Source of the DNA: Paramacrobiotus metropolitanus
Lineage: Eukaryota > Tardigrada > Eutardigrada > Parachela > Macrobiotidae
NCBI RefSeq assembly: GCF_019649055.1
Contig: NW_026570311.1
Location: 434,001-498,000 of the forward strand
DNA length: 64,000 bases
Reading direction: 5' to 3'
In this document: piece after piece, positions 35,226 to 55,728 of the stretch
Layout: each line of letters begins with the position of its first letter
Numbering within the stretch: the stretch's first letter is position 1
Notes under the pieces: generated by a model
The model's database searches: none
Told to the model about the DNA's origin: nothing
The model's input: the letters and a program-made list of their open reading frames with translations, nothing else
Made by a program: the position numbers and the translations under genes

Positions 35226-37037
35226 TTATTTCGATCCAGCCAGCTTAACCGCGCTGGATGCCAAGAGACAGGATGGTACAGATCTGCCCGCATGACAGCC
35301 ATGACGTTGCAGATGCTCCGTCATCTTCTCCACTTTCCGCGAGCCAAAGGGGCACATGTCGCACTGCACCATTTTCCCGTTGACCTTTTCCCGGTGGGCC
35401 GGGCTCTCAATGTGTAGCAAGAAATCCGCCTTTGTCCGTGTGTTGAAGTTGCAGGCACCGCACTCGTAGTCTCTCGGAGTCAGTTTCGACATCTGACTTC
35501 TCGTTACTCTGCTACGTTTCGTTTCGGCATTGCTGGGAATAATCGCTGTCGGCGCCGTCCCCGTTCTTGTGGATTTCCCGAGGCGGCAGCGTTTGTATTC
35601 CCGCGGAACAGTTTCAGTGGTGTCCGTCTCCGAGCTGCTGGAGGAACTCCATCGTTTCGGACGACGGCGCTGTCGCTTAGCACGGTTGTTGGTGCTGTTG
35701 CTGTCTACACGCGGCTGGGCGACTGGAGCACGTTTCGGGGATTTTGCCATTTTCGTAACGGGGTCAATAATCAGTCTCCTGCGTTGGAGAACCGTTGCTG
35801 TACTCTTATTATAACCGGGATATTTGTAACGACCTGGTGCCTGCTCCACCAGACATTTTTGCGAACCAGCTCGGTGAGGACCGGCTGCAGCTTCTCTGGA
35901 AGAGTGGCAAACTCCACCCTAAAATCACACAGCATAATAGCATGCCCAAGAGGTACGGGTTCGTTTTCAGAGTTAGTTAATGGACATCTACGAAGTATTT
36001 AAACAAAAGAAATATATTTTATGGAACAGAAGAAGAAAATTATTTGCGTGAAAGGTGGTTTGCCTGGCTTGCGAAACATTTAAACTGTAAATGGCAGTAC
36101 GGCTACCTAAACCCGGCACTCTACGTCATCGTACACATTTCGTACTTACTGAGTAAACACGAGTAGAAAGTGGGGGTGGCCAACTGTACCGTAACTGAAC
36201 CAAGTGGGGATTCATATACAACGAAACATGCTCTATAATTCTGGCCTATCAGGGGTAGGGGATTCATCATCATTACACGATTTGTGGCACGGAGACCCCC
36301 ACGCTACTGAATTCTACAAAAATAGTTTCATGATTTGTAAAATGTGCAAGGCTAATATGCACACCCACGGTGCGACAGTTACTAAGTAACAACCATGCTC
36401 GATTCGTTTTTTGCGTTTCCTGAACATTTTGTGCTCAGTGGGTTCTCTGATGGGGCAAACGATATCTAAAGGACTACTGTACTGATTTTTAGGGACTTCA
36501 ATGAATCGGAAAGAGAAATGATTGTACTGCTAGGAGATGCGGAGAACCGTTGTTGAGTTCTCTGACGTAAAGTGCCTGGTTTAGGTTGCCGTACTCCCAA
36601 ATGTATCTGACAGCTTGCAAGATTACGTGTTTGTGATCTGGTACTTACTCAAATGTCCCGTGGATGTACTGCACGATAAAGTCGGCCGTGGCGCCCTCTG
36701 GATCGCCAATCTCCTTCACCGACATCACGACCGCTCGGCGGAAATTCTTGACATTCTTGACGACGTATGTGCGAATACTCTTGAGGCCGTCGGGGTCCTT
36801 ATAACACGGAAGTCCTGGGCTGTGTACGACGAAAAGCAATTCGCGTTGAACGGCCGTCTCCAGCTGGGACTGTACCGTTCGGCGGTTGTCAACGTGCTGG
36901 TGCAGCACTAACCGTTGCAGTATGCGGTCGAAAGACGGCCGCTTTTTTCTTTCTTTTAGACACTTGATGGCCGCCTTAATTTGCGGCAGCAACGGGCACG
37001 CTGTGGTTATGGCTTCCAAACCCCTCGGTTCCGCCAT
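35226..37037 (-). pseudogene. Winged-helix/H15/C2H2 family member 1, one frameshift
   Basis: Exon 1 is 37037-36649 (389 nt, donor GA/GTAAGT) and exon 2 is 35918-35226 (acceptor TGATTTTAG). Exon 1 encodes the SAMD1/KAT6-type winged helix (LLPQIKAAIKCLKERKKRPS ... GLPCYKDPDGL) and the first half of the second winged helix. After splicing, VEFATLPEKLQPVLTELVRKN is read, then one base is missing near 35855 before LVEQAPGRYKYPG. The rest, a basic linker (AKRQRRRPKRW) and two C2H2 fingers, is intact in the shifted frame. Summed exons are 1082 nt, one short of 361 codons. This could be a young pseudogene or a one-base sequence error. Confidence 0.75.
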
Positions 37038-37877
37038 TTGATCGCTGTCGCCGCACTTACAGATCTGTATAACTTAATCCCGGCTCATGGAAAACAGTGG
37101 CTAATTGGTAGTAATAAAAGATACACGGCACACCATTGTGCCACAACAGAACATGTATATCAGTATATGCATACTGCAACCAAGAATTCTGGCTTTTTAA
37201 ATACCATTGCAGTTTGCAAGGGCTGGACTCGGCTCGCATAGAAACTCTGAATAAATCTACCGATGGAGGGAATCGAGCGCACGACGTCTTTTCTCTAAGG
37301 CCGAAATAGGCGCCACTACTGTCTGTTATCGAAATATCGTACAAAATGTATTGAAATTTTTATCGAACGATTCTATACTTTTAGAGAAAGAATGTCTCTC
37401 TGACACCATGACCCATGACTAAATCGCTTTGAACATTTTAGTTACCGGTAGGCGTATTCTTTTTTTGGTACGGTTGTTGTTGTTGTTTGTTACTGCAATA
37501 AAAACTTCCGCGGCGTCAGGCATGCGTGGATTTTGGAAATACCGGAGATTAGTGGAAACGGCTCGAATTATCCACTCCAACGATCCACTCGAAATAGCCC
37601 GAAACAGGTCTCCTTCAGTGGTTAGTCTCCGTTAATGCTTAATGAGTCTTATATAGGTTAACGTCACTTATGGGATATTCAGGTCTGACGTCACAAAACT
37701 AGAAGTGTGTACTGCCATAACTTATGCGATGTTTCAACCTTACTGCACGCCTGTCTGATTCAGCTTCGTTGTAACGGCCGGTCTGGCAACGGAGGGGGCT
37801 TTTTTAAAATACTTGATTGGGGAAGCGCTATCACTGATCAGCATCTATGATTCAACCAAAGCTAGACCTTACTGAAA
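37038..37877. other. Intergenic, nothing recognised
   Basis: Upstream of family member 1 (minus). No coding stretch supported. Confidence 0.4.
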
Positions 37878-38430
37878 ATGTGTAGCAATGTTCCTATGTG
37901 GAAGCAACAAGAGCAAAGCGGAAGTAAGCCCACCGTTACCTATAAACGGCGAGTTACTGACAATCAAGGGGAACATTCAGCTGCAGAAAGTAAACTGAAC
38001 ATCAACTACGGCATCCAAAAGATGAGACGAACAAAAACCGGACTCACCATTTCCCAGCAAGTCATCCTTTATCACGCCTTTGTCCAGGATACATAGATTA
38101 CTGTGGACTGGCCTGGTCAACGGCGTCTCCGGGGGAGCGGAAGAAAGTTGAGTGAACGTTAGGATGCAGCCCTGCGAACCATCACCGAATACGGGATACG
38201 GGTAACACCGGAACTGTACCGGAAGCTGGGGATTACACCAGCAAAAGATCGATGGCGCCAGAAGGAAGCAGCCTGGCTGTTCAAGATCCGCAACCGGGAG
38301 AATTTTGCAGTGTCGTCATACGTGTGCGACTTGGTTTCCTTCAAGGACACCAGTACGCAATATGGACTCCGCCGTACAGAGGGGATCGATGCTACCGCGC
38401 GGCGGAACATCGGGGAGACGACCCTAGCGA
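37878..38430 (+). pseudogene. Unrecognised coding-like relic
   Basis: About 38164-38330 reads without stops as a charged helical peptide (ALRTITEYGIRVTPELYRKL, then GITPAKDRWRQKEAAWLFKI). The segment 37878-38093 is also open but is separated from it by stops. Composition looks coding, unlike the flanks. I do not recognise the family; a decayed mobile-element protein is one possibility. Confidence 0.3.
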
Positions 38431-39492
38431 TGAGGCTTAAAATTCGATTTAATAAAATTATGAACGATGGAGATAATCTGTTTGGCTGTGGTTCTGTTGA
38501 AGTGGAATTGTCTTTACTGAGTCGTCTTTACTGAGTGGAATTGTCTTTACTGAGTCTCAAAAATATTTTTAAATTTTTTTTGCTGTTTTATTGTTTAAAG
38601 TTTGACATTGACCAGACTATTGAGTGCCTCAGGGTGTGTCTGCTCGGAAATAAACTAAACCAAGTAGCAGGAGTGTGAATATCGGAACTTGTATTTATGA
38701 CATTTGGTGCAGTATATGAGTATATCAGCTCCAAGAGGCAGACCGCCTGAGATTTTAATCGTCTCGTCGACAAGGCGGTTGTCGGTGTAGGCTGAGGGAA
38801 GCGCATTTAATCAAATTCCGGCTTCCGGTCGGGACTGCGCGTTAGAATGGCATCATAATTAAACTGTGACCGGAGGTACGTATGGTACGTACGACCACTG
38901 TACCTACCGATGAAAGCACTACTCGTCTAGCAGGGAGATTGTTTGTTCCCTGCAGCGTTTACACGTTCGGTGTTGTTAACGCTCGCACCACGCGCATACA
39001 TACACCAAAACTATTACCACATACACCGAACAACTGCTCCTTCTACTGTCTGCCGCTCGTAGCCGCATGCCGCCGCTTGACGTCTCTTGATCAGGATATA
39101 AATGCGCACTGGCGCATACTAACGGAGTACGATTAGTCACTCGAACCTTCTGTCTTCTCTCTAAACTGAACCCTGTGTATTAATGACTCGTATTGATTTT
39201 TCCCGGGTGCCGATCTCCACGCAGTTCAGCACAGACATTAGCCTTGCTAGCATACAAAAACACCACACAGGCGCTACCAGTGTCTACGCTTTCAGTACGA
39301 AGAACAACGCCACATGTCAAGAATAACCGTACAGTAAGCATATCTGCGGTGACGCTTTTATGCCCTACAAACGAAGAACCAGTCGTTAAAAAAACAAACT
39401 GAGCTGCATTTCGATCCAATTCGAGTAGCGTTTTCACCATCGTGGAGTTTTAAGCTGGACGATGTGATTACGTTTGGTAACACGTCAGGATA
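38431..39492. other. Intergenic; promoter side of the second 4-TM gene
   Basis: Contains a short direct repeat GTCTTTACTGAGT (three times, 38508-38556). From about 39210 it matches the flank upstream of the first 4-TM gene. Confidence 0.45.
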
Positions 39493-40261
39493 ATGGCGGG
39501 TAATGGGGCGAAAACGGGGACAAGGCATATGATTGGGCTCGGCGCTGCCCTGTGTGTCTGTGGCCTACTGCTGCTTATCCCGGATACCGTTTGTAAGTGG
39601 CGCATTGCATTGATTATTTTGTTATTTAGAACTTGTTTTGTAATCCAACCAAATCGAATTTTACGTTGGAACTGTGCATTAAGCAGACGTATTTACAGTC
39701 TTCGTTTTATTCATCCCCATATTTGGATTTTCCGGCGTCATCTCCGGAATCTTCTACATCGTCACCGGCGCGATAACGATCGCCGCCGGGAAAACCACGC
39801 AGACCAACCAGGACAACGCCCGCTGCCTGCTGATCGCCGCCCTGGTGCTCAGTACCTTGTCGCTGCTGTGTGCCTTCGGTTTGCTCATCTTCGCCATTAT
39901 CGTGACCATCTGGGTGAGCATCTGGCCGTTGGCGGCGGCCGTGTTGGTCTTGCATCTGCTGGTGTTGGCCATCTGTATCGGTGTGATCGTAGTGGTGGCC
40001 CGCTGTCCCGCCTTGCATGCCCGCCCCACCCTGAATGTGGTGATGACGCCTCTGGTCTCGCCGCAAGGGACCGGAGAGGCTCCCACGTCCAGCTACCACA
40101 CTGTTCAGTTTTATCCGGCTCACGCAGCAGAGAAAGCTTTTCATCCGGTTCGGGAACCAGGGAAAGCATTTTATGCGGTTCATGAACCAGGGAAAGCTTT
40201 TTATCCAATTCATGAACCAAGAAAAGGTTTTTATCCGGTTTATCCACCACAGAACGTTTGA
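39493..40261 (+). CDS. Four-transmembrane protein, copy 2, with repetitive tail (2 exons)
   Basis: Exon 1 is 39493-39592 (donor GTAAGTGG) and exon 2 is 39699-40261 (acceptor ATTTACAG), phase 1, giving 220 residues. Membrane segments align one-for-one with copy 1, and the AITIAAGKTTQ-NQDNARCL loop is nearly identical. The extra length is a C-terminal array of about four 10-11-residue repeats of the type EPGKAFYPVH, ending YPVYPPQNV. At DNA level the unit is TTTATCCGGTTCATGAACCAGGGAAAGC-like, so it arose by tandem expansion. Convergent with the gene ending at 40850. Function unknown. Confidence 0.85.
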
Positions 40262-40849
40262 AGCATCCCTGCCAGGAAATGCATGTAACAGTGTTAAAGC
40301 AAATGTCTGTGTAATCTTTTACGGTCTTCTGACTACCTGTTCTAGCTACCTTATGACACCATCTTGCATAAGCGCAGCGTGGCTGTGCAGATTTTCCGGA
40401 AGTTGGGCATGCAGATTCTTAATCGTTCTTGTACCGATGGGGTACGCTTGATGATTCGAATGCTTTCCTCTTTTAAAGTAGCTCTGGAGAAGTGATTGTC
40501 GTATAATATATTGCTTGCGCTATTACTTTCGTATGCGGAAAATAATTGCCAGTGCCGACAGTTAAAAAAATTGTGATCGAAAAGTACCGGTATGGTAATA
40601 GCATAAAGGAAGTGTTTCTGTTACAAATTTTGTGAATGGTACTTAGTTTGTATCCGAAATAAGATACTTATTAAAGGAGTCTACCCAATGGGTACGGATA
40701 CTGGGTCCGAGAGAACCAAGCTGCGAAAACAGAGTCGCGGCTTATAACATTTACTGTCTATTGACTATTACAACAACTAGCGAACAAATTATGAATGCCG
40801 CAATGAACAATGATAGCCTAATACCTTTTTCGGTGAAAACTTGTGAAAA

Positions 40850-42259
40850 CTATTTCGATGCAGGCAGTCCAGCCACGGTGGACGCCAGAAGACCGCATGG
40901 TATCGATTTGCCCTCATGGCAACCATGACGCTGCAGATGCTCCGTCATCTTGTCCACCTTCCGTGAACAGAAGTGGCACACGTTGCACTGCACCATTTTC
41001 CCGCTGACCTTTTCCCCGTGGGCGGGACTTTCAGTGTGTTGCAAGAAATCCGCCTTTGTCCGTGTGTTGAAGTTGCAGGCGGCACACTCGTAGTCGTTCT
41101 GATTTAGTTTCGAAATCTGACTTCTCGTTACTCGGCCACCGTGTGTTCCGGTACTACTTCGAATAGTGATTGTCGACGCCGTCCCCGTTTCGGTGCGTTT
41201 GCCGAGGGGGCTGTGTTTTTTCTTTTCCGGTGGAACAGTTTCAGTGGTGTCGGACTCGGAGCTGATGGCGGAACTCCATCGCTTCGGACGACAGCGCTGT
41301 CGCTTGGCACGGTTGTTGATGCTGCTGCTGTCCGGCAGCAGTCGGGCTGTTCTACCGGGCTTCGGGGGTCTTGGGATTTTCGTGATGGGATCGATAACCA
41401 TTTTCGCGCGCCTGAGAACCTTAGCGTTAGTTCTGGAATAACCGGGATATTTGTAGCGCCCAGATGACTGCTCCACCAGCAAACTTTCGTGAACCAGCTC
41501 GGCTAGGACCGGCTGCAACATCTCTGGAAGAGTGGCGAAGTCCACCCTGAAATCCCAGAAAAGAATACGATACCACTGGCACTGGATAAAGTGCCTTGGA
41601 CAGATACGTATCTCATGGATAAAATATCATCTTCCTCATGAATTTTTAAATGTTTTGGAACGCTAATTGCATGGCAGCTTCTACTGGGTATAGTTCTGGT
41701 GTCTGAGTATTTTTCTGGAGTACCCTTATTTATTTTGTTCTATGTGAAATTGTTTCGATTCTCTATGGATCTCGATCCGAAAAGATATCTTGCATCTTTC
41801 AGTATACAAGCGAAACACTGTACTCGTATCTGCAACTTTCAACATTTCGTGTTTGTTATCATGTGCTTACTTAAAGGTCGCGCGGATGTATTGAACGATG
41901 ACTTCGGCGGTGGTGCCGTCCGGATCGCCGATCTCCTTCACCGACATCACGACCGCTCGGCGGAAATTTTTGACAGTCTTGACAGCGTAGGTGCGGATAC
42001 TCTTGAGGCTATCGGGGTCCTTGTAACACGGAAGTCCTTGGCTGTATACGACGAAAAGCAGCCCCTGTTGAACAGCCGTCTCCAGCTGAGACCGCACGGT
42101 CTGGCTGTTTTTCAAATGCTGGTGCACCCTCAACCATTGTACTATACGGCAGAAAGATGGTCGCAGCTTTCTCTTCTTCGCACACTTGATGGCATCCTTA
42201 ATTTGCGGCAGCAACGGGCATGGGATAGTTATGGCATCGACACTACCAGGATCCGCCAT
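40850..42259 (-). CDS. Winged-helix/H15/C2H2 family member 2, intact (2 exons)
   Basis: Exon 1 is 42259-41871 (389 nt) and exon 2 is 41546-40850 (697 nt), phase 2, giving 361 residues. Residues about 12-85 fit the SAMD1-like winged helix found at the N-terminus of KAT6 acetyltransferases: CPLLPQIKDAIK, basic KKRKLRPS..RI, GLPCYKDPDSL. Residues about 93-175, across the intron, fit a second, H15-like winged helix (VKNFRRAVVMSVKEIGDPDG, LPEMLQPVLAELVHESLLV, GRYKYPG). A basic Ser-rich linker follows (AKRQRCRPKRW), then two fingers, C-x2-C-x12-H-x5-H (YECAACNF) and C-x2-C-x12-H-x3-H, ending GCHEGKSIP. A nuclear DNA- or chromatin-binding role is inferred from the domains. No acetyltransferase domain is present. 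Confidence 0.85.
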
Positions 42260-42691
42260 TTATCCGGAGTCGCAGCACTTAATCCTGAACCAGGGAAAAT
42301 AATAAATATTATTTTACCAAAGCCTGCGCACATGGTAATTCTACAGAAATATAATTATTATTATTATGCAACCATAATATATTATGTAAATACTACTTCG
42401 GTTTTTTAATGCCGAAAAAGTTAATTGCTCAAGTAAATACTGTCGATGTTTTACACCGAGAGTTGAGTCATAGACAGGCTGGGATATGTTCGGGACACCT
42501 TCGCCCCAGACACCCTGAATAAAAACATATGCTGAAGTCAAGGTTCACGTGTAAATTATACAATATGCAGAGACCGCATCGAGAAATAGAACATGCGCAG
42601 TAAATAAAGAATAAAGAAACACTTACGAAACACAGCACTCGTCCTAATGCTTTATGACTTTTGTAATTTTAAAAGTCCTTTTCAAAGAGCC
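42260..42691. other. Upstream of family member 2, nothing recognised
   Basis: AT-rich 5' flank of the minus-strand gene. No coding stretch. Confidence 0.35.
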
Positions 42692-42869
42692 TGTGAGCGG
42701 AGAAGCGGCTCACGTACAGCGATAAAGTCTTTCAAAGGATTTCAACGTATTGCGCCGTGGTGCAGTGGTACTGCCTACGCGGATCTAACGACGTAGCCGG
42801 GGTTCGATTCCCCCATCGGCGCCTTTTTCAGCCGTTTCTCGGTTTCCCCCGGATTGCGCCCTGCTTATA
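42692..42869. repeat. 178-bp duplicated unit, copy A (tRNA-derived SINE-like)
   Basis: Identical as far as I can read to 43055-43232, offset 363 bp. Each unit has TGTGAGCGGAGAAGCGGCTC, a tRNA-like core and a CGGTTTCCCCCGGATTGCGC tail. Copy A continues into GGTAGCAGATCGTGGTT, a tail also found after the tRNA-like core at 47.9 kb. Confidence 0.8.
42752..42823 (+). tRNA. tRNA-like sequence, copy A (probable SINE head, not a functional tRNA)
   Basis: 72 nt. The acceptor arms GCGCCG/CGGCGC pair. The A box TGGTGCAGTGG and B box GGTTCGATTCC are perfect, the D stem GCAG/CTGC and T stem pair, and TTTTT follows at once (RNA polymerase III stop). The anticodon stem CTACG/CGTAG encloses a 12-nt loop instead of 7, so no anticodon can be assigned. 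Confidence 0.55.
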
Positions 42870-43054
42870 TGGTAGCAGATCGTGGTTCGGTACGTCCACT
42901 TCGCCTATGAGACCAGTGTGCTAACCTCGAACGGGAGGAACAGAGCAAAAACGAATAAAAAGATAAAATGAATAGAGGATGCGGTGAGCCGGAGCCGCCG
43001 CTTAAAGGATCGCTTAGTCTCGCTACGAGGACGTAGCGAAAGCTGCAAAGGGGG

Positions 43055-43232
43055 TGTGAGCGGAGAAGCGGCTCACGTACAGCGATAAAGTCTTTCAAAG
43101 GATTTCAACGTATTGCGCCGTGGTGCAGTGGTACTGCCTACGCGGATCTAACGACGTAGCCGGGGTTCGATTCCCCCATCGGCGCCTTTTTCAGCCGTTT
43201 CTCGGTTTCCCCCGGATTGCGCCCTGCTTATA
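43055..43232. repeat. 178-bp duplicated unit, copy B
   Basis: Second copy of the unit at 42692-42869. Identity ends at CTGCTTATA, after which the flanks differ. Confidence 0.8.
43115..43186 (+). tRNA. tRNA-like sequence, copy B (probable SINE head)
   Basis: Same 72 nt as copy A, with the same 12-nt anticodon loop and TTTTT stop. Confidence 0.55.
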
Positions 43233-44215
43233 AGCCATATCAAACGATGTATAACCGTGGACTGGATAAGAGTCCAGGACGGAAGCCAGACTGACAGGAC
43301 TCCGTGTAGTGTAGAACGTAGCGTTTATGGGAATAAATGCACAACGCACGATATCCAGCTAACGTAATACACTTTTATTAGTGACTTCGATCGTCAACCA
43401 AAACACACTGACGTTCAACCAACTCAGAGAGCCAAATTCCATCTGCTCTCGGCAACACTAATACACTGCGCAGCAGTGAACACAATGAACGGCAGTAGCC
43501 GACCAATCAGAGAAGCGCTGCGTCACAGACGGCAGTTCCCCACGGAGTAGTGCAACGAGGCACACCACTAGCGTCACGAAGGTGGACGCAGGGGAGCCAT
43601 CGCCTCACAGATGTTTAACTGAAGCACTCCGAGCAAAGCGCCCTCTACTGATATTTTCTTCACTGTGCATAAACCAACGATATCCTGAGTCTCCCCGGTA
43701 TGGTAATTTGACTATTCACCGGCAGAGCTGTTTTTCGTTTAGCTGACTAGAAAGTAGAAAACGATTGTTTTCTATAAAAATACAGATGCATGTGCTCGTA
43801 ATTTTGCGAAAATAATATCGGCATCTTTAAGGGCTGTAACAGGGTAAATGTGTACAGTACATGTCCATGAACTTCCGCTTTCGTGCGTTCAAAAGGAGCT
43901 TCTGATTTTCTGCGTGCATGTTATTATGACATGGTGTAGCCACATGTTTTGTATTATAAGTACCTTCATTATTATGTACAGGTTTGGTTGTCTGCTTTTT
44001 CTTCTCTATCTGCTGACTGAGCCTGACTCAGCTGATTGACCAACATTGGCTTTGTTTCTGCACATCTACGGTAGCAACTCAACTTTTCCCTAATGAAATA
44101 CTATTGTCTTATTCAATGTGCTTACTACCGGTATTTGAACAATTCGCAAAAAAAAACATACGTTCGTAGAATTAACAGTAGAAAAAAACGATGATTGAAG
44201 ATTCGAAAAGGTTAC
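43233..44215. other. Intergenic, nothing recognised
   Basis: GC-richer until about 43700, then AT-rich. The first part could be the body of a transposon, but no coding motif or terminal repeat is visible. Confidence 0.35.
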
Positions 44216-45375
44216 TTAAATCGACGGATCCACCTCCAAAACGGCCGATGACCGGAGACAGGAAGGGATGGATTTGTCCTCATGACAGCCATGACGCTGC
44301 AGATGCTCCGTCATCTTCTCCGCATTCCGCGAGCGAAAGCAACACACATCGCACTGTACCATTTTTCCTTGGACTTTCTTCGCGTGGGCGGGGTTCTGGA
44401 CGTGCTTCAGCAAAAGTGTCTTTCCGCGTGTGGTGAAACCGCAGGGCGAACACTCGTAGTTTTTCTGGATTCGCTTAAAAATCCGGCGTGTCGTTACTGT
44501 GTTCTTCGGCGATTGGACGTTGCTAGTTGCAGCAGCTAACACCGTCGACGATTTATTATGTTTCCAGGGGTGACCGCGTTTTTGCTGGCCCGCGGGGCAC
44601 GCTTCCCTGGTTTCCGGCTCAGAACTACTGGTTTCACCTAATCGCAAGAAAGCCGGACGTTGACGTTGTCGTTTGAAGCGCTTTATTATGCTGCTGTCGT
44701 CTGACGGCGGGTGGACTGCTGTGACACACTTCGGAGATCCAATTGCGTGTGGATCGTTGACCGTTTTCACGTTCTTGCGTCGAAGAACCCCGTAACTACT
44801 CTTCTTCAGGTCGGAATACTGGTACCGACCCGGCGTCAGCTCCGTAAGCAGGCCCTCCCGAGTGAGCTCGGCCAGGATAGGTTGCAGCATTTCTGGAAAT
44901 GTGGCCAGCTCGACCCTATCACAAAAGTAATTTATGACCACCCAGCGTTAAGGACGCGATATGACCGCTACGGTTACCCAAGTGCAACTTACTCAAAAGT
45001 AGTCACGATATACTGGATGATAGAGTCCGCGGTAGCGCCCTCCGGATCGCCCATCTCCTTCACTCCTGTCGACACCGCACGCCGGAAATTCTTGACATTA
45101 CTGACGGTGAAGGTGCGGCGACTCTTGAGGCTATCGGGATCGCTGTAGCACGGCACTCCCTTCATGTGAACGACGCGAAGCAGTCCGTGGTGCACTGCCG
45201 TCTCCAGCTGGGACCGAACAGTCTGGATGTGGTCAACGTGATGGCGCAGCATCAACCACAGGCAGTCCAGCGATGGCCGCCGGTGAAGCCGTTTCGCAAC
45301 CCGGATGGCCTCCTTGATTTGCGGCAGTAACGGGCACGTGGTATTTGTTGCTGGCACATCACCAGGATCGGCCAT
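44216..45375 (-). CDS. Winged-helix/H15/C2H2 family member 3, intact (2 exons)
   Basis: Exon 1 is 45375-44993 (383 nt) and exon 2 is 44915-44216 (700 nt, acceptor TTTTGTGATAG), phase 2, intron only 77 nt, 360 residues. The first winged helix (LLPQIKEAIRVAKRLHRRPS, KGVPCYSDPDSL) and second winged helix (VKNFRRAVSTGVKEMGDPEG, LPxMLQP form FPEMLQPILAEL, GRYQYSDL) are conserved. The linker is basic (KRFKRQRQRPAF), and two C2H2 fingers close the protein (YECSPCGF..., CDVCCFRSRNAEKMTEHLQRH). Unlike members 1 and 2, no 4-TM gene lies tail-to-tail with it. Likely a nuclear DNA-binding protein, by domain inference. Confidence 0.85.
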
Positions 45376-47013
45376 TCCTTCGGTGTCCCTGCACTGAAAT
45401 CTGAGCCAAGGAAAAACAGTAATTACTGTTTAACTGGATCTTGCCAGGAGAGCAACCAGAATTGTACCAGTATGCCAGTTATGCAAGCATCAATCCTGAT
45501 TTTAAAACACCTTGATGACAATGTTTGGTCAATCAATTATCCCAAAAAGTAGATAACTATTGCTCTGGCTTTTTACGAATTCGTGTTTCAACGCACTTCA
45601 TTTGATAAGCAGTTATTATGACATGAAGGCAGCTACTCGAGAGCCTACCGTAGAAATACCGCACCTTTATATGGTAATTTGTGGTTAGGAGCACTTGACT
45701 GGGATACATTCAGGATAATTTGGTCAGCCCAATCCAAGGTTCATGCAGGAGCAGGATATAAGGATCTGCAGAAAACTTTTGTTTGTTGACAGTTCAGTGA
45801 AGTTACAGGCACTGAATGCGAGCTACGGTTGTGCTGTGGGTCTAAACCCAGGCGAAATACAAAAATGACGTAAGTCGAAAATACTTATAAAATACACGTA
45901 CTCGTAGATCGTAGGAAACATCTGACAATATTCATCAGCTTTTCTGCACACGTACAAAATCGGCACAATACTAGTACTGTGTGAAAAACTGCTGTATGAC
46001 ATTCTTGGAATTGGGATGAATCAAAAAAGCTAAGATGTCTGCTGTTACGACCGTGGTGTTGACAAGTGGACGATGGCTATCCTGGTTTGATTAATTGCCA
46101 ATGTGCATGGTCTGCGTGCTCATTAGTACGAGTATTATTATGCGAAGTGGCTATGCGCAGGAGTTTCGTACTGCGGTGCTATACTGCGCATCGTACGTTA
46201 CATAGCAACCGGTGACCGTTGATACGTAGGTGCGAACAGTACGAGAGTTGATAGCATTGCTTGCATGGTATAGTTTTTTTTTACCTTCCCTGAAATTTAT
46301 TTGGCCCCTGGGGGCCGGGGGGTTCTCCCATCGCACCTGATGCTAATATTGGCACGGGCAAAAATTAGCTGCAATGGTAGCAGGCATGCCAAATCGGGAT
46401 TTTTCTACTACATACATAATTATGCGAATGCATTAAGTATTTTTTCTAAGTTTAACCAATGCGGTTCTCTAGGGGCTGTATTGTATTTCATACGATACAG
46501 ACTGCTATACACTGTATACAATGCTGTATACAATACAGTGAAGCCCCTTGAGTAGGGCAGTGGTAATGAGAATTTTAAATTTTCGGCTCGTGCATTCTTT
46601 ATATAGAAGTAAGTACAGATTCTTGATATTCAACCGTTATTCAACCGAAACTGATTCTTGATATTCTTATCGCTGTTTTGGAAATAAAGTATATACTTTC
46701 AGTACAGATAGATCAATGGCCTCAATGGCGTTCTCGACTGGGCCCAGGGCGACGATGAGGATGACGACCTGAACCGGGGTGGCGATGGAGCCGCGACGTC
46801 GCCCTTTTCTAGTATCGCGACACCAATACTGACCTCCGAAACTATCCTTTCGCAGCTCATGACGCTTCTGACGAAATCTCCGATGTCGACACACTCAGCA
46901 CAGTGCGCATACAGTGGTACAATCGCACTCGCTGCAGTAAGTCCAAACCAAAGATTCGCCGTTGTAACAGAGGTGGCACAGGAGCCGTACTGTAGCCGCT
47001 AGATGAAGTTGTA
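45376..47013. other. Intergenic, nothing recognised
   Basis: Contains a short palindromic stretch near 46490-46540 (ACTGTATACAATGCTGTATACAATACAGT). No coding exon can be supported. Confidence 0.4.
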
Positions 47014-47014
47014 C

Positions 47015-47063
<49 letters not shown>

Positions 47064-47065
47064 AA

Positions 47066-47092
<27 letters not shown>
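47014..47092. repeat. (TA)n microsatellite
   Basis: About 80 bp of nearly pure TA, interrupted by a few extra A bases. Tyrosine/isoleucine-rich open frames here are by-products. Confidence 0.95.
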
Positions 47093-47097
<5 letters not shown>

Positions 47098-47888
47098 ACA
47101 TCGTTGCGGCACAAACTCTGAGCGGTAACGATATTTCACTCTTTTAAGTTTTTCTCAGATTGGTCATTTGATTTACTCAATAATTTGCCCCTTTTAGCTT
47201 TTCGCAAGAATTTTAACATTTTTTATCCCTTTTTTGTTTTTATCCATGAGAAAGCGGTTTTACTTGATATATCTTATCATTCTTATGTTTATTATCACTT
47301 TTCTAAATAAAAAATTTTGACGTACTAAAGTTTCCTCTAATTATAAAACTCCTGCGCATAGCTTTGACCATTATTATGACCATAAGTGTGTGAAGACGTT
47401 TATGTCTTCATCGGATTATTCCTTATCTGCTGTGTAAGATCTGACTGCTGGTCGAGTGGGAATAATGAGGAGGCAGGATGAATGTGGCCTGCAGATGTGG
47501 TTAATGTGAAATGTAGTGATGGGATTGGTGCATGTGTTTTTCTAGCTTTGTGGCTGTATGCGAATATGAGCATATTGATGTGGTATATAAGTTGATGCAA
47601 CTGTGGGAAGGCGGCACAGTTGTCGGGAGTACAGCTGTCATGGTGAAAATAAAAGTTAAGCTTTTTCCCTTAGTGAATGTTGTGGTGGTAGACGTAGTGC
47701 ATTAGGGGTTTTATATCACTGCGTATTCAGACGCAACCGTCAGCAGAGGTATGTCTGTTTTTATTTGTTTAGAACAGATGCATTCTTTGGCTTCGCATAA
47801 GAACTTTGCAATTCTAGCGTGATGTCAGAGCGGCATCAGCTCTCTATAGGATCGTTCGATAGAATATTTCATTAGATTTGTATGCTTT
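47093..47888. other. Intergenic, nothing recognised
   Basis: AT-rich, no coding stretch supported. Confidence 0.35.
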
Positions 47889-47959
47889 GCCGATAGCCTA
47901 GTGGTGCCTCTCTCGGCCTTAGAGTATGGAGGTTGTGGGTTCGATTCCCTCAATCGGCA
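47889..47959 (+). tRNA. Second tRNA-like sequence (probable SINE head)
   Basis: 71 nt. Acceptor arms GCCGAT/ATCGGC pair, with discriminator A. The A box TAGCCTAGTGG and B box GGTTCGATTCC are good, and a T run follows shortly after. The anticodon region (CTCT...AGAG, 9-nt loop) and the T stem (T-T mismatch) are irregular. About 45 nt downstream is GGTAGCAGATCGTGGTT, the same tail as at 42871, which links both to one repeat family. Confidence 0.5.
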
Positions 47960-49691
47960 GATTTTTTGCGAGTGTCTGTGCGAGCCTAGCCCAGCCCTTT
48001 GATGGTAGCAGATCGTGGTTACTATCTACGGATCCTCCTACTAATTCTATTAAGCTATTCGATTACTTAATTAAAACGATTTAAGCGAAAAATAAACTAT
48101 TATTAAGCCGATTTGCCGAACGTACGACTTAACCGTTGTACGTACAGCCGACTCGATATGAGTATGAGCCGATTCTATCAGTACGGGATTTGGGCTCTAT
48201 CAGCTCGAGGGACCTCGCTTCGTAGCGGAGGGAGTGTCTGTGCGAGCCTAGCCCAGCCCTTTCAGTGACTACGTTATTTCTGTACGGTGCATGCAACTCC
48301 GTTAAAATAGGGCAGGGCTAACAAGCGCCCGTCTTCGCAGTCACTGGCGAATCAGGGGAAGGCGGCCAAGAAACAATGCCGTCCATAATTCATTGCCTTT
48401 GCACGAAGAACGTATGCTTAAACACCACAACCTCCCAGAGGCGCAGTGGATTTCAGAAAAAACCAAAAACTACGGAAGTTCACTGGTCAACCTTCCGGCA
48501 TTCAAAATCTGAAGCATGTGGTGACCCAAGACACATGAGCATCGATCCCAAGAGATGTGGGCCAGAAAATTAGCAGTGAAATTCACGATGGCAAGGAATG
48601 CTGTATTTTTTCTCGGAATGTTAAGGTATGATTTGGTCGACAACAAGGTTTTTTTGCTCTCGTTAACAGAGTGTACTGTGTACGCCGTAGCATTCGGCAA
48701 CGGATTTCTCAGAAGTGGCGCAAGTGGATGAACCTTCAGGAAGCGTGATTCTATTGAACATCCTGAAGCACTATGTCCACAGTCCTCCTTCGGTCGCTTC
48801 TAATCATGGCCGATACCCAGGTCACATGGAACTGTTGTGCGCTGCGTGCAGCACACGAATGTTTGCAGTACAAGCATAACGTATTTCTGCACGCTTGAAG
48901 TAGCTCCGTTACAAAATGTCGCTCTGACGAATGATCGTTTTCTACAACAGCTGCCAGGCAGCTGTTCGGAAGGCAACCTATGTACAGCTCCGTTTTCTAT
49001 TATGCCACTCTGCTTTAACTTACACAACCGGACTAGAACCGTTATTATGCGGCCAATGTCGAAACGCCGACGACATTTGATTTACGAACGTTCTTACCAA
49101 AAAACGAAAACTTGGAAGATGTCTAGAGGATGAAGCGTACACCTCGCCACGTATCCTACATCATCGGTGAGGGCAGTGGGGAACATACAATCTTTTCAAT
49201 GATGAGTCAAGTGTCCCTGCCTATAACGCTTGCCCATTACCGCACAATTTATATTGAATATCTACTCGTTTGTGCATAATTTAGAACAGTTTTTGGCTGC
49301 TCATGCTACGTATACAAAATATGCACTACAAAATTCCTTCGTTCAGTTCGGCCGACGGTACTTTCCAGAACGGAAATCGATGCTGTTGACAAGAATCCAG
49401 GGTTTCAGTACTAGTACTATCGACAAAAACTGGAGCACGAACGTAAAAGCCGCTGGCATGCAATTTCGACATTTAGAATGGAAACTACGAATAATCTGGT
49501 CAACGGAAACAGTCATAAAGGACGTAACTTTAACTCATGCTTAAGTTCAACTTTGATATGACATTAAATTTTTCGGAGTGTGTCTGAGATCTGTTCTGTG
49601 ATCATTTATTTATATAATGCCACATAAGGACACCCAGCGCCTGTTTCAGCAGTATTTCAGCTAACAAATTTTTGATACTTTATATTTACAA
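47960..49691. other. Intergenic with dispersed repeats, no gene recognised
   Basis: GTCTGTGCGAGCCTAGCCCA appears at 47972 and again near 48235. The block AGAAGTGGCGCAAGTGGATG near 48711 recurs in altered form near 53090, so the region includes members of an unidentified repeat. Open stretches at 48376-48573 and 49230-49544 show no motif I can name. Confidence 0.4.
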
Positions 49692-50171
49692 TTATTTCGA
49701 CATAGCCAGTCTGAACAACACGCAGGTCAGGAGACTGGATGGGATGGATTTGTGTCCGTGACAGCCATGCCGCTGCAGATGCTCTGTCATCTTTTGCATA
49801 TCCCGCGAGCGAAAGCGGCACGCGTCGCACTGTATCATCTTTCCGGCGACCGTCTCCCGGTGGGCGGGACTGTGGATATGTTCCAAGAAACCCGCCTTTT
49901 CCTGTGTGGTGAAATTGCAGGGCGCGCACTCATAGTCTATCTGAGCTCGTTTCGGAATCCCACTTCTCGTTACTCTGTTATTTAACGCCTCTACCTTCCT
50001 GGCTGATGAGGCAACAGATAGCGCTGTCGAAACTCCAGCACGTTTTTCGGGGTGAGTTCCTTTTTTCGTCGGATATTTTCTACTCGCTCTGGACTCTGAG
50101 CTGCTGGCTTCATCGCAGGGAGCGAATGCCGGGTGTGGCGGACGACGGGGGTTCATGCTGCTGCAGTCAGG
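49692..50171 (-). pseudogene. Winged-helix/H15/C2H2 family member 4, 5'-truncated
   Basis: Only the linker and the two C2H2 fingers remain (YECAPCNF..., CDACRFRSRDMQKMTEHLQRH, GCHGHKSIPSS), corresponding to the C-terminal half of exon 2. Similarity to siblings stops around 50171; the LPEMLQP block, the exon-2 acceptor and exon 1 are missing upstream. The remaining frame is open. Without both winged helices and with no obvious start, I treat it as a truncated pseudogene; a short zinc-finger protein cannot be excluded. Confidence 0.7.
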
Positions 50172-51270
50172 CGGTCGGTGGACATCGAAATAAGATGCAA
50201 TCTGAATATTTGTTCAATGCGAATATCGAAATCAGATATAATTGGCGGCCAGGCTCCAGGCTACAAGGCCACTAGGGTAGTCCTACGAAATACACAAAAA
50301 ATCAATAATAAATATTTCAGAAGAACTATTTAACCAGCCGAATAAAGCAATCGCAAAGTACGGCTGTGTTTTTCAGACAACGTACGAACTGTTTACTGTA
50401 CTACAAAAATTTAGTAATACTCACTAATCAGGATAATACTCAGCTTCGATAATATATTGCATCGATAATACTCAGCTTTTCTGCACACGAAATCACTAAC
50501 GGCTAAGAGCGCTTCTTGTTATTCGTAGAATAATCTTCGGGATGTGCTAGAAGAGTCACGCCAAGAGAAGAGTAACGCGCCGGCCGCTTCCTCTTCGATT
50601 ATATCGTGTTTGACAACGGGACAGCAGCAAACAATCCACAATCCCAATATTATAATCCACAACTGAATATTCATAACAATCATAGCAATGCTGGTATTTT
50701 TCTTGCCAGTTGCCACAGCACACTGAACATCGGGTATTTTTTACATTCATATGCACGTCGTTGCACTTGCACATCCGTGTTCTTGTACTATGCACTATAA
50801 AGGTCACACACTGACACTGTACTACATCACAGAGGTGCAACTGGTCATGACATGCATTTGTCTTACAAATCGTCATTCGTCTGTGAACAATTGGCTGTCT
50901 GCTATTTCTTCTCTTCTGTGTACTTCTTAAGTGCAACTAACAACGAAGAAATGCTTGCTGTTCGATTGATGAAAACATCCAAGACTATAAGCGACTGCAA
51001 AGTGCAAAGCATCAAACTACAGAACCACCAATCGGGTGATAATCATTTCGAAAAATCACTGTTCGGCTTACATATCACATCCGCTTGCTGTTAGGAGAAA
51101 ACCTTAGAATAAACCTGCACTACTCTGTACTACCGAACTGTATGATTCAACAATCAAATATTCGTATACATCTGTACAGCAGCAGAAAAAAACTTTCTCT
51201 GCCTAATTTCCACAACCAAGCGTATAACCGACAAAACTTTCTCATCATTTTCTAGTGAGAATTTTCAAAA
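50172..51270. other. Intergenic, nothing recognised
   Basis: Separates the truncated member from member 5. No relic of the missing exon 1 is visible here. Confidence 0.4.
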
Positions 51271-52948
51271 CTATTTCGGCCTTTCTTTGTGCAGCCTACC
51301 AGGCCGAAAAGACAAGAGACTGGACGGGATGGATTTATTCTCGTGACAATCATGGCGTTGCAAATGTTCCAGCATCTTAGCCATCTGCCGCGAGCGAAAG
51401 CGGCACGTGTCGCACTGAGCTAGTTTTCCGGCGACGTTCCCCGCATGGGCGGGGCTCTGAATGTGCTCCAACAAAAGGGCTTTTTCTCGTGTGGTGAAGT
51501 TACAGGCACCGCACTCGTACTCGTAGTCCACCTGCCTTCGCTTCGGAATCCGGCTTCTCGTTACTTTGTTACCTGGCGCGAGGACCGTGCTGCTCGACGC
51601 CGTCAAAACTCCAGTGTGTTTTCCGGGGCGTACTGGCTTATCCCTCGGACATGTTCCACCAGTATCGGACTCGGAGCTGCTGGCTTCGTCCCTTCCAGCC
51701 CATGCTATACGTTGCGGTCTGATGTCACGCTGGCCCCTGCTGTTGCGGTCAGGCGGCCGCTGGGCGGCTGGGACGGGCTCCGCGGAATTGGAGGTCTTCG
51801 TATGGCAGTCCATCGCCAGTCTCTTGCGTCTTAAAACCCGGTGTCTGGCTTCCCGACAACCAGCCTGATATATATACCGCAATGACGACAGCTGAGTAAG
51901 GATGTTTTCACGAACGAGTTCTCCAAGGACAGACTGTAGCATTTCGGGAAGAATGACCAGGTCTACCCTACAAATGGTATTCAATGAGTCCTACAAGATG
52001 GTCATTTCATACTCTGTGTTTCTCATATTCGGTCATCAGGTGTTAAAATTTCCGGACAAAGAAAAATACCAGAAATTAGTAGCTTTCATAGTAAAAACTC
52101 CGCTCATAAATTTCGAAACATGACTTCAAAAACATTTCCATAAAAAACCAAAGGAAGAACAGGAACTGGACCGGATGCAACCTAAAAGAACCGCTGTTCC
52201 AGGGTTTACAAATTTTATAAATTTCAAATTTCAACGTTTCCAATAATCTTGTTTTGATGACGCAGACCAGCGAAAACAAATCAAAAAACACGTTGTACAA
52301 TCAGCAGTTGTGCTGTTTATGTAGCGCGTCCACTTTGAGGTGGCGTAAGTTACCGGTGAAAATAAGAAAGTGTAAACTTAATGCGACCGAAATATGAGAA
52401 AAATCGAAGTACTGAAATACATGACCTTTTGAAACATGCTAAGGATCATTAAACCTTTGCGAATTTCCGCTTTCAAAATTCAAAATCTTTTCTAATGTAA
52501 TATTCAGATGAAATTGTTGTTTTTGACTGTTTTTAGCGTTTCTATGTTGGTGTAGTGGTACTTACGTAAAGGTCAGCTGGATATATTTAATGATGTCGTC
52601 GGCTGTGGTGCCCTCCGGATCGCCGGTCTCCCGCACCGCTGTTACAAATGCCTGCCGCAAATTTCTGACATTATTGACGGTGCTAGTCCGGAGACTCTTT
52701 AGACTGTCGGGATCCTTGTAGCACGGCAGTCCTTTACTGCGCACTGCGAGAATCAGCCCGTGTTGAACGGCTGTCTCCAGCTGGGAGCGGGCCGCTACCA
52801 TGTTGGTTCCGTGGTGGCACAGCGTCTTCCACAAACAGTCGAAAGACGGTCGGTGGTTTTGTATTTTTGCGAACCGGGTGGCCTCTTTGATGTGCGGCAG
52901 CAAGGGGCACACGATGCTTGTGGCTTGCAGATCACAACGACCGGTCAT
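51271..52948 (-). CDS. Winged-helix/H15/C2H2 family member 5, intact (2 exons)
   Basis: Exon 1 is 52948-52566 (383 nt, donor AC/GTAAG) and exon 2 is 51967-51271 (697 nt, acceptor CATTTGTAG), phase 2, giving 359 residues. The first winged helix keeps LLPHIKEATRFAKIQNHRPS and GLPCYKDPDSL. The second keeps VRNLRQAFVTAVRETGDPEG and LPEMLQSVLGELVRENIL, but its GRYKYPG block is altered to LRYIYQAG. The linker is Ser/Arg-rich (DEASSSESDTGG). Fingers are C-x2-C (YECGACNF) and CDTCRFRSRQMAKMLEHLQRH. The intron is 598 nt. Predicted nuclear, DNA-binding. Confidence 0.85.
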
Positions 52949-53519
52949 TTCCTTGATACCGTCGCAACGGAAACTCCAAGTTACTGTAAAATAACAAACT
53001 TCGATTAAACAAGCAATACCTACCGTATCATGACAATACCCAATGCAAACAGACTTGATACTGTGAAAAACGCTCTTCGGCTTTCGTAGAAGTGGCGTAA
53101 GAATAAAAACCTTCAGGATGCTTGATTATCTGATTGCATTCAGGATCCTGGAGTGCAGTTTTATTCGGCAACAACCCGCACCCATACCAATGCGACCGCA
53201 CGGATTTAAACTAAATAAAAAGGCCAAATTTAAACACTACGAAAACAACCGTAATCGTCGTTCATTGCTCGTTAGCATCGATGGACATCTTAGGTCCTGC
53301 ATTCAGTGAATCGAAATTAACAGCTGTGGCATTTCCTCTGACTACCGCTAAACTCAGACTCTAATCCTGACACTCAAACATCCTGAAGACACTCAAACAT
53401 CTTCCTACCTGAGGTGAGATACAGTTGTTCAGTACACATCGGTAGAAAACGAAGCACCAACGAAAAGTCACTGACAGTGACATCTGACAAGCAATCTCGG
53501 CAGAATGGAAAAATCACGA
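52949..53519. other. Intergenic, nothing recognised
   Basis: Upstream of member 5; includes the diverged repeat shared with 48.7 kb. No coding stretch supported. Confidence 0.35.
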
Positions 53520-53640
53520 ATAACGTGCCGCCTTAGCTACTGGAGTATACGGTCGAAAAACGGCCGGCCCTGTCTCTCTTGATGGCCGCTTTATTTTTGG
53601 AAGAAATGGGCACAAAAGCCTTATGGCTGCGTCGTAGGAT
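53520..53640 (-). pseudogene. Relic of family exon 1
   Basis: The minus strand reads LLCPFLPKIK, one frame slip, then a basic block ending FFDRILQ-like codons, matching CPLLPQIKAAIK...RPSFDRIL of the family. The rest of exon 1 and all of exon 2 are missing. Confidence 0.55.
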
Positions 53641-53966
53641 AGGCTGACGGCTGTTTCATAGAAGAGGAAAGCACTATGTTGTACAAAGTATATCACAAAA
53701 CCGTCAATGCGTTGTGTTCAATTCCAAGAACAGGAGCACGTTAGATCCGTTCCGAGCACATGAACTGTGACTAAATTTAGGTCACTTTATCGTCTGACTC
53801 GGCAGTGACCCAGCATATGAGAATTCCTTGCATCAAGCAACCATCTAAAGTCATTTGAAAAATCATTGATATTAGCTTGGCGATTCTTTTCCTTTTTCTT
53901 AATTTAATTACGAACTTACTAACGAAGATTTACTTTTCGGTGTATAAATGTGAGAACATTGTGCGA

Positions 53967-55728
53967 ATGGCGGACCCGGGTGGTATATATGCGTGCCAGT
54001 TTATCTGCCCGATGTTGCCGATATTTCTGGAAGTCGTCGACAGCCGAGCCTACAAAACCCGGTCAACCTGGGAGCAGCTGCTGGGGATACTGCGGCGGCG
54101 CTACGGTGTTTACGACGCCCAGGCCGTGCAATCGCAGTTGGATGCGGCCGTTCACAACGGACTACTTGTCGCCGTCCACGTCAAGGGTAATGTTTGTTAC
54201 AAGGACCCGGAGAGCTTGAGGGAAGCCCGCCGGTTCAGCGTCGATGACGTAAAGAAGGTGTGGCGGGCGGTCGTCACCGCTGTGCGGGAAATCGGCGATC
54301 CGGAGGGTTCCACTGTCAGTGCGGTGGAGCGGCACATTCGCTTATCATTTTGGTAAGTACAGCGTGGTACCTGGTAGGCACGCATTGCTGGAATATTTTG
54401 CCGAATTATCGCTGCTACACTGTACAGGTGCTGAAAACAGGGTTTTGGTCGTGTCCGATCGCTTCGGCCGACGTTCATTTCACCTGCACGTTACTTCGTC
54501 GAGCATTCAATTCCACCGCTGGTTTAGATATACCAGCTAGTTTCGGCTTATATATTCGAGTGGAAAGTTTTCTTTAAGCTTCTTAAGTTGTTTCTTAGAT
54601 TTTTAGGTTTTTTCACGTTTCTTAGGTCATCATAAGCTTTTTTCCAGTTTTGTGGTGTGTGGAGGTATTTTGTTTTTTAATTTCAAGACATATCTTAGTT
54701 TCCTCGCTCGAGAGTTTCTTAGATTTGTTAGGTTATTTTATTTTCTTGGGTTGGTTGCAGTTTCTGTGGCCAGATTTTGTTTAACGAAAGTCTATTTTGT
54801 TTAAAATGTAATTCGTGGGCGAGTCGGTGTAAGCCGAAGTGTGTGAGCCGAAATATAATTTTGCCAAAGTGAATGGCGGCCGAAAACGAAGGGCAGCCAA
54901 AAACGTTTTCCCGAAATCAGGAAAGTCGAATGAAATTGGTGGAAGTGATCGGTTGCCGTGTTCAGTGTGCATGTCCATGCTATTTTGCCGCTTCGTTGCA
55001 GGGTACACATTACGGGAAACCTCGCCGTGCACATTCAGCGTGCCCTGGAACTACTCACCCGGCAGGGAATTTTTCTTCAACTGCCACACGACCGTTACAA
55101 ATACACCGGCTCCTGGCGGAATGATAATACGCTGCTCAACCGTGCGTACAAGGCGGCGACGGAAATCATCGAAGCCCCCGAACCAGCACCGTCGGTGCCC
55201 CGTAGTACCCCGCCCAAAACCGGCAGCAGCCTGATTGTGCATAATACGCGGCAGCGCGCTCGCGCCACCGGGGCGGCTCTCCTCCCGGCGGAACTACTGC
55301 GCATCGCTAACCGCTCCGCGTCCGCCCCCAGCCTCTTAGCCAAGCGGCCGCGGCGCCGTACCGCGCAGCTCTCGAACCTAGTATTTAGCACCAGGGCAGG
55401 AGACCACCCCACCGTCCCGGAAAAACCTACCGTAGTGAAGAAGCGGCCGCCGGAGAATTACGAGTGCGCCGCCTGTGATTTCGGTGCCAGCCAGGCAGCG
55501 GTCTTCCTGGATCATATTCAGAGCCTGGCCCATTGCGACCAGGTCGGTGGGAAAATGGTGCAGTGCGATGTGTGCCGTTTCCGCTCGCGGAAGTTGACGA
55601 AGATGCGGGCGCACCTGCAGCGTCATGGCTGTCATGCGGGCAAATCCCTCCCATCCAGCATGCTGCCTCAGGCTCTTCCATCGGAAAGTGGTATAGGCAG
55701 TCAGTATTCCATTGCCATTTCCACTTGA
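53967..55728 (+). CDS. Winged-helix/H15/C2H2 family member 6, intact, opposite strand (2 exons)
   Basis: Exon 1 is 53967-54352 (386 nt, donor TG/GTAAGT) and exon 2 is 55002-55728 (727 nt, acceptor TTCGTTGCAG), phase 2, giving 370 residues. The start is the ATG opening MADPGG, shared with siblings, although the frame is open further upstream. It is the most diverged member: first winged helix CPMLPIFLEVVDSRAYKTRS with KGNVCYKDPESL, second winged helix VKKVWRAVVTAVREIGDPEG and IQRALELLTRQGIFLQL with DRYKYTG. A Pro/Arg-rich linker and two C2H2 fingers follow (YECAACDF, CDVCRFRSRKLTKMRAHLQRH). It is convergent with a 4-TM gene (end at 56387), repeating the pairing of members 1 and 2 in inverted form. 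Confidence 0.85.

Follow-up and report, generated by a model that had tools for sequence, protein, structure and literature searches.

Here we report a gene family in the tardigrade Paramacrobiotus metropolitanus that sequence comparisons support as a copy of the tandem winged-helix portion of the acetyltransferase KAT6, in which the KAT6 intron was kept, a two-finger C2H2 unit was added, and the acetyltransferase is absent. The predicted layout of the proteins is a first winged helix (WH1), then an H15-like domain, then two C2H2 fingers. We consider it reasonably probable that this origin and the following role hold jointly, namely that the enzyme-less proteins with their KAT6-derived WH1 and H15 domains, KAT6 intron and finger pair are most likely nucleosome-bound adaptors or competitors of KAT6. 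A literature search of titles and the starts of abstracts, covering few subscription papers, recognised neither such a family nor the related transposable-element open reading frame (ORF) described below.

Loci and gene models in the window

The window is a 64,000-nucleotide stretch of one contig, C91. A tblastn search of the window with the proteins of genes B, C, E, and F found six family loci, one fewer than the seven counted in the initial annotation, which had rightly taken four of them as intact. Genes B, C, E, and F are open, locus A is frame-broken, and locus D has only the finger part, the same search finding neither exon 1 nor H15 there. The proposed fixed two-exon plan with a phase-2 intron was seen, with GT-AG borders predicted, in all five window loci that have exon 1. 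The features are as follows, with the bit scores of the exon-1 translations against the Pfam family SAMD1_WH.

36649..37037, minus strand: locus A exon 1, coding for WH1 plus the first half of H15 (40.3 bits)
35226..35918, minus strand: locus A exon 2, second half of H15 and finger pair, frame broken near the exon start
35301..35462, minus strand: locus A C2H2 finger pair
41871..42259, minus strand: gene B exon 1, coding for WH1 plus the first half of H15 (43.2 bits)
40850..41546, minus strand: gene B exon 2, second half of H15, basic linker, and two C2H2 fingers
42017..42196, minus strand: gene B SAMD1_WH match (C91:476017-476196)
40925..41086, minus strand: gene B C2H2 finger pair
44993..45375, minus strand: gene C exon 1 (20.6 bits, under the 24.5-bit cut-off)
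44216..44915, minus strand: gene C exon 2, after an intron of 77 nt
44291..44452, minus strand: gene C C2H2 finger pair
49692..50213, minus strand: locus D, an open frame holding the finger pair alone, its in-frame ATG (50156) placed by eye
49767..49928, minus strand: locus D C2H2 finger pair
52566..52948, minus strand: gene E exon 1 (24.4 bits, cut-off 24.5)
51271..51967, minus strand: gene E exon 2
51352..51513, minus strand: gene E C2H2 finger pair
53967..54352, plus strand, opposite to the other window loci: gene F exon 1 (27.4 bits)
55002..55728, plus strand: gene F exon 2
55465..55626, plus strand: gene F C2H2 finger pair

The predicted proteins of B, C, E, and F have 361, 360, 359, and 370 amino acids, respectively. 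A scan of the window against Rfam gave no match above the gathering scores. A search for COX1 gave no match, nor did one for the nematode SL1 RNA, in which none of the controls was recovered either.

Domain content and the link to KAT6

Comparisons with Pfam, with PDB profiles, and by hhalign support the WH1 assignment, in agreement with the KAT6-type domain proposed initially. The SAMD1_WH score exceeds the Pfam cut-off in three of the five exon-1 translations (A, B, and F) and falls under it in those of E and C; the spliced proteins of B, C, E, and F score 40.1, 22.7, 23.4, and 26.3 bits. The claim of an H15-like second winged helix stands on the same three kinds of comparison, but at the Pfam level the window genes only approach the Linker_histone (H15) cut-off of 22.4 bits: matches at the expected place in the spliced proteins of B (22.0 bits), C (21.7), and F (19.8) lie 0.4-2.6 bits under it, and the Pfam scan listed none for E. 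Two family members elsewhere in the genome, C7:1515 and C7:1518, are above this cut-off, the two scores being 34.9 and 29.6 bits. The two C-terminal C2H2 fingers were confirmed in the window loci, and all eight zinc ligands are invariant in the four intact proteins. An AT-hook-like stretch in the linker is clear in the C86 member, in C7:1518, and in the KAT6 of this genome, and is decayed in B and C; a motif scan did not find it in E and F.

The profile-profile comparison suggested in the initial annotation was run as a PDB-profile search and with hhalign. With a profile built from four proteins, the best solved match was the WH1 of KAT6A (7y43, E 4.6e-10), and the SAMD1 structure (6lui) was matched at E 0.0062. 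The H15 profile had a single match below 0.01, an H5/ADAR chimera (7c0j, 1.5e-4), with H1.0 at 0.039 and KAT6B at 0.24. In hhalign comparisons, eight family sequences aligned with the KAT6 of this genome over 148 columns spanning both domains (probability 99.8, E 6.4e-30); against WH1 fragments, they reached 98.5% with KAT6A and 13% with the SAMD1-like gene of this genome, a separate gene at C66. SAMD1 parentage was therefore rejected in favour of KAT6, on both the PDB and the WH1-fragment comparisons.

The KAT6 gene of this genome is marked by MOZ_SAS matches at C3:2389006-2389740, with a SAMD1_WH match some 5 kb upstream in the same orientation. It carries both the WH1 and the H15 domain, as the family does, its Linker_histone score being only 13.9 bits; a motif scan, which an intron-split PHD would escape, found no PHD in it. 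The position and phase of its intron are equal to those in all 12 family loci having exon 1 (acceptors placed by eye). Since this KAT6 has both domains and the matching phase-2 intron, duplicated KAT6 N-termini are the best explanation of the family, and the initially noted resemblance to the KAT6 N-terminus becomes firmer than had been claimed. Trees did not separate the family from KAT6 and left many forks open.

Compared with known proteins, the family shares the order WH1-WH2 with the N-terminus of KAT6A/KAT6B (MOZ/MORF), and the phase-2 intron inside WH2 with the KAT6 of this genome. Unlike KAT6A/KAT6B, the proteins scanned have neither a MYST acetyltransferase domain nor a PHD, and carry two additional C2H2 fingers. 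This agrees with the enzyme-less architecture proposed at the outset: Pfam scans of the family proteins listed no PHD, including the double PHD finger, and none of the 14 MOZ_SAS matches listed for the genome (on contigs C3, C11, C14, and C45) lies on the family contigs C91, C7, and C86. The family WH1 falls in the Pfam family named after SAMD1 (atherin), but its match to SAMD1 is weaker than that to KAT6A, and Pfam scans of the family proteins showed no C-terminal SAM domain, nor any other. With the linker histones H1/H5, the family shares the H15-type globular domain, which is its second domain. A lysine-rich C-terminal tail is a feature of linker histones, whereas in the family H15 lies between WH1 and the fingers, and the C-terminus is formed by the two fingers, not by such a tail. 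A separate strong linker-histone match is located at C33.

Divergence, selection, and DNA-contact residues

The genome-wide count and the dN/dS comparison of paralogues suggested initially were both carried out. The count gave 13 family loci on the three family contigs, 12 of them with exon 1 present; six keep the full open layout and a start codon, and seven lack one or the other. Synonymous divergence in exon 1 ranges from 0.34 upward across the family and is often saturated; in the window, A-B is the closest pair (dS 0.54), and other C91 pairs range from 0.86 to 2.26. These large distances do not support the recent expansion that had been proposed, and the family appears fairly old. As judged from codon comparisons among B, C, E, and F, the H15 domain and the fingers are under purifying selection, with dN/dS of 0.20-0.35 and 0.14-0.29, respectively, and upper bootstrap bounds below 1 in all six pairs for each; the fingers are the most constrained part. 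WH1 is not clearly constrained in the B-F pair (dN/dS 0.82, upper bound 1.51). The seven incomplete loci could be taken to mean that the family consists mostly of decaying duplicates without present function; this is very unlikely, given that six loci are still open despite large synonymous distances and that, in the four genes tested, both H15 and the fingers are under purifying selection.

In human MORF, mutation of R26, K21, K24, and K66 of WH1 is reported to hurt DNA binding (PMC9908889). These positions, along with K19 and K22, were mapped onto the family via 7y43, and the resulting table covers 10 of the 12 family sequences. R26 is kept in all ten and K21 is K or R in all ten; K24 is K or R in eight, being lost in C and E; K66 is kept in six and lost in the other four, as well as in the KAT6 of this genome. 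K19 and K22 are basic in five and three of the ten, respectively. As these contact residues are partly lost, CpG reading by the family WH1 may be weakened or changed. CpG observed/expected in the window is 1.12, and no DNA_methylase match was listed for this genome.

The drift of these contact residues, the strong constraint on the fingers, and the finger-only open frame kept at locus D would also suit ordinary C2H2 DNA-binding factors whose fingers read the DNA and whose winged helices are generic aids to DNA affinity, with no tie to KAT6 function left. We regard this as unlikely, though the most serious of the alternatives: H15 is constrained in all six pairs as well, and two fingers alone offer little for specific reading.

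As to relatives of the finger pair, two-finger ORFs on contigs C51 and C55 reach 39.8 and 52.5 bits against the finger profile of the family, compared with 30.5 for a CTCF pair, and hhalign ranks CTCF above C51. A role of the C51/C55 ORFs as finger donor is suggestive only.

Predicted function and a related module in LTR elements

By analogy with KAT6, a KAT6-derived family would be expected to bind nucleosomes and CpG-containing linker DNA without acetylating them. In such a mechanism, WH1 would grip linker DNA containing CpG and H15 would sit at the nucleosome dyad, both as reported for human MORF; the basic linker, AT-hook-like in some members, would give an extra DNA contact, and the fingers would lend each paralogue its own preference for DNA or partner. 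Since the enzyme domain is absent, the proteins would most likely be nucleosome-bound adaptors or compete with KAT6 for its sites. If so, a conserved acetyltransferase can have its chromatin-reading front split off, multiplied, and re-armed with zinc fingers, and the family offers natural KAT6 competitors or adaptors for study.

A homologous tandem module is encoded in an ORF after pol of one Ty3/gypsy-type LTR element, and ORFs related to this module occur on many contigs of the genome. The family and element modules align in hhalign over 147 columns (99.0%, E 2.5e-18). A 757-amino-acid element ORF searched against the PDB gave nothing below 0.04 and no winged-helix match; element ORFs are not among the 12 matches of a genome-wide SAMD1_WH search, nor included in a genome-wide six-frame Linker_histone search, whose one match is that at C33. 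The homology raises the possibility that the family is a domesticated element protein derived from this module and not from KAT6. However, such an origin is disfavoured to the point of being highly improbable by the intron, whose KAT6 position and phase are common to all 12 exon-1 loci, whereas the element ORFs inspected run in a single frame straight through that place; moreover, the family matches KAT6 more strongly (E 6.4e-30) than the element module does (92.7%, E 4.4e-7).

With descent from KAT6 as the preferred reading of the family, a doubtful extension is that the KAT6-type nucleosome-reading module serves both the host family and a Ty3/gypsy-type LTR lineage in a host-element contest. 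A diversified lineage carrying two module copies after pol would perhaps steer its integration or the chromatin state, and the host family members would compete with the elements for the same nucleosomes. The presence of a homologous module in an LTR element would permit a direct test of nucleosome reading by such elements.

Family loci in the window and across the genome

Using the reading frames of the window, we identified six related loci (A-F) within 64 kb, one fewer than the seven of the initial annotation, whose four intact genes were all recovered as open two-exon genes of 359-370 aa (B, C and E on the minus strand, F on the plus strand). In locus A the frame is broken early in exon 2, and locus D has a finger-bearing frame only. 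The fixed two-exon plan proposed earlier is common to all five window loci having exon 1, each with a predicted GT-AG phase-2 intron of 77-730 nt within the second domain. Loci A and B were duplicated along with a stretch at 33453-33837 and 39690-40083 (DNA repeats D1-D4 and D7), which is a portion of a hydrophobic ORF. Hydrophobic membrane-type ORFs alternate with the family loci (33453-33837, 39683-40258 and 56390-56944); in a Pfam scan the one at 56390 was weakly CD20-like (19.7 bits vs a cut-off of 27.9), and the one at 39683 had no family match. A two-copy 187-nt repeat lies upstream of gene B (42683-42869 and 43046-43232, 98% identical).

Searches with SAMD1_WH, protein B and the finger segment, combined with reading of the loci found, gave at least 13 family loci genome-wide, a lower bound because the search scores the best candidates only: six in the window (contig C91), one on C86, and on C7 a group of five clustered at 1.484-1.519 Mb plus a single locus at 1.739 Mb. 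Six of the 13 keep the whole layout open, start codon included: B, C, E, F, C86 and C7:1515. C7:1518 is open, with no ATG seen in the exon-1 frame; C7:1739 has lost the H15 end and first finger in frame; and C7:1485, C7:1497 and C7:1507 are, like A, broken. Outside the window, open or broken status was assigned by eye. By inspection, a 1195-aa gag-pol-like ORF sits between the exons of C7:1497 (C7:1491618-1497260; L010, L011).

Domain composition and relation to KAT6

Exon 1 encodes a winged helix (WH1) matching Pfam SAMD1_WH above the cut-off in A, B and F and below it in E and C. When the four intact proteins were combined into a profile and compared with solved structures, the WH1 of KAT6A ranked top (E 4.6e-10), C2H2 fingers came next, and SAMD1 scored 0.0062. 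The suggested H15 domain exceeded the Linker_histone cut-off of 22.4 in C7:1515 (34.9) and C7:1518 (29.6) and fell just below it in spliced B (22.0), C (21.7) and F (19.8), at residues ~98-163; no such match was listed for spliced E. A spliced H15 profile of seven segments matched an H5/ADAR chimera (1.5e-4), H1.0 (0.039) and KAT6B (0.24). The fingers are spaced C-x2-C-x12-H-x5-H, then C-x2-C-x12-H-x3-H. A motif scan, which presupposes the zinc ligands, found nine family finger pairs, and all eight ligands are invariant in the four proteins aligned without a ligand condition.

On contig C3, a SAMD1_WH exon is followed ~5 kb further on the same strand by MYST exons, and by its sequence this gene is KAT6. 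Its WH1 exon stops at the same codon position as that of the family, in phase 2, and the next exon restarts at the matching residue; the predicted intron has the same place and phase in all 12 family loci having exon 1 (acceptors chosen by eye). Aligned by hhalign, eight family sequences matched this KAT6 across both domains (E 6.4e-30, single-template E-values being rough). Pfam recognized WH1 alone in it (47.2 bits), Linker_histone being below the cut-off (13.9). With many forks left open, the trees do not separate a single family clade from KAT6.

A further start exon of the WH1-H15-like type, its donor at the same place, was observed at C113:248500-251000 (L017), with neither second half nor fingers in the 1.1 kb read downstream. 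A SAMD1-like gene at C66:694000-699500 (L006) has a WH1 (65.3 bits), PHD-type motifs and, by eye, a SAM-like end. Open frames of ~120-205 aa on C51 (L020), C55 (L021), C40 and C81 have two fingers in a similar arrangement, and C51 carries 22 of the 48 genome-wide finger-segment matches; such frames are a possible donor of the family fingers.

WH1-H15-like units downstream of pol ORFs

The protein B search also matched long single-frame ORFs on many contigs. Two loci with such or related ORFs placed after pol are:

C32:1045407-1057805 (L025, L015, L026), element with two KAT6-like WH1-H15 units after pol
C1:1961000-1976500 (L028, L019, L027), related ORF after pol

On C32, a pol ORF matching aspartyl protease, reverse transcriptase, RNase H and integrase precedes a 757-aa WH1-H15-type ORF, which is flanked by two repeats ~12 kb apart (98.6% identical over 283 positions). 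This is an LTR element, and its domain order suggests the Ty3/gypsy type. Alignment resolves two WH1-H15-like units in the 757-aa ORF; its Pfam support is modest, with Linker_histone at 31.7 bits and SAMD1_WH at 21.1 bits (below cut-off) for the whole protein and no single stretch passing on its own. The C1 ORF (Linker_histone 21.6 bits, below cut-off) is preceded by pol with reverse transcriptase, RNase H and integrase, and a repeat pair was not found within the pieces examined.

ORFs with related units are widespread on many contigs. An element winged-helix unit used as query gave 54 matches, some ORFs being matched repeatedly; four were family loci (A, B, E and C7:1739). By hhalign, twelve element units matched the family at E 2.5e-18 and KAT6 at 4.4e-7. 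Among the 45 pairs of ten element units, 23 were saturated and 22 were close enough to compare, 21 of the latter from one group of which the ORF units were examined (L030-L032, L034-L037). Uncorrected pN/pS was 0.06-0.17 in 20 of the comparable pairs, with the two closest pairs reaching 0.30 and 0.40.

DNA contact residues, proposed role and selection

A study of human MORF (PMC9908889) describes WH1 binding CpG DNA via residues including K19, K21, K22, K24, R26 and K66, and WH2 binding the nucleosome dyad. In ten of the 12 family WH1s (C7:1497 and C7:1507 omitted), R26 is kept in all ten, K21 is K/R in all ten, K24 is K/R in eight, K66 is kept in six, K19 is basic in five and K22 in three; in this genome's KAT6, K22 and K66 themselves are changed. 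No DNA_methylase was among the matches listed for the genome, a missing match not being proof of absence, and the CpG o/e of the window is 1.12; methylation is therefore probably not gating DNA binding in this genome. A motif that we take to be AT-hook-like reads KRKRGRPK in C86; an exon lying between the domains of KAT6 has it as KKKRGRPFKK, and B, C and members on C7 show weaker versions. From the MORF mechanism, the contact residues, the CpG and methylase data and this motif, we infer that the family proteins may be enzyme-less nucleosome binders that would serve as adaptors or as KAT6 competitors.

Exon-1 dS is 0.54 for A-B, 0.86 to 2.26 for other C91 pairs and 0.34-0.71 among C7 loci, and C86 is saturated vs every partner listed. 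For pairs drawn from B, C, E and F, dN/dS has an upper bootstrap bound below 1 in all six pairs for both H15 and the fingers, in five of six for WH1 and in three of six for the linker; the ratio is rough for several pairs involving F because they are near saturation.
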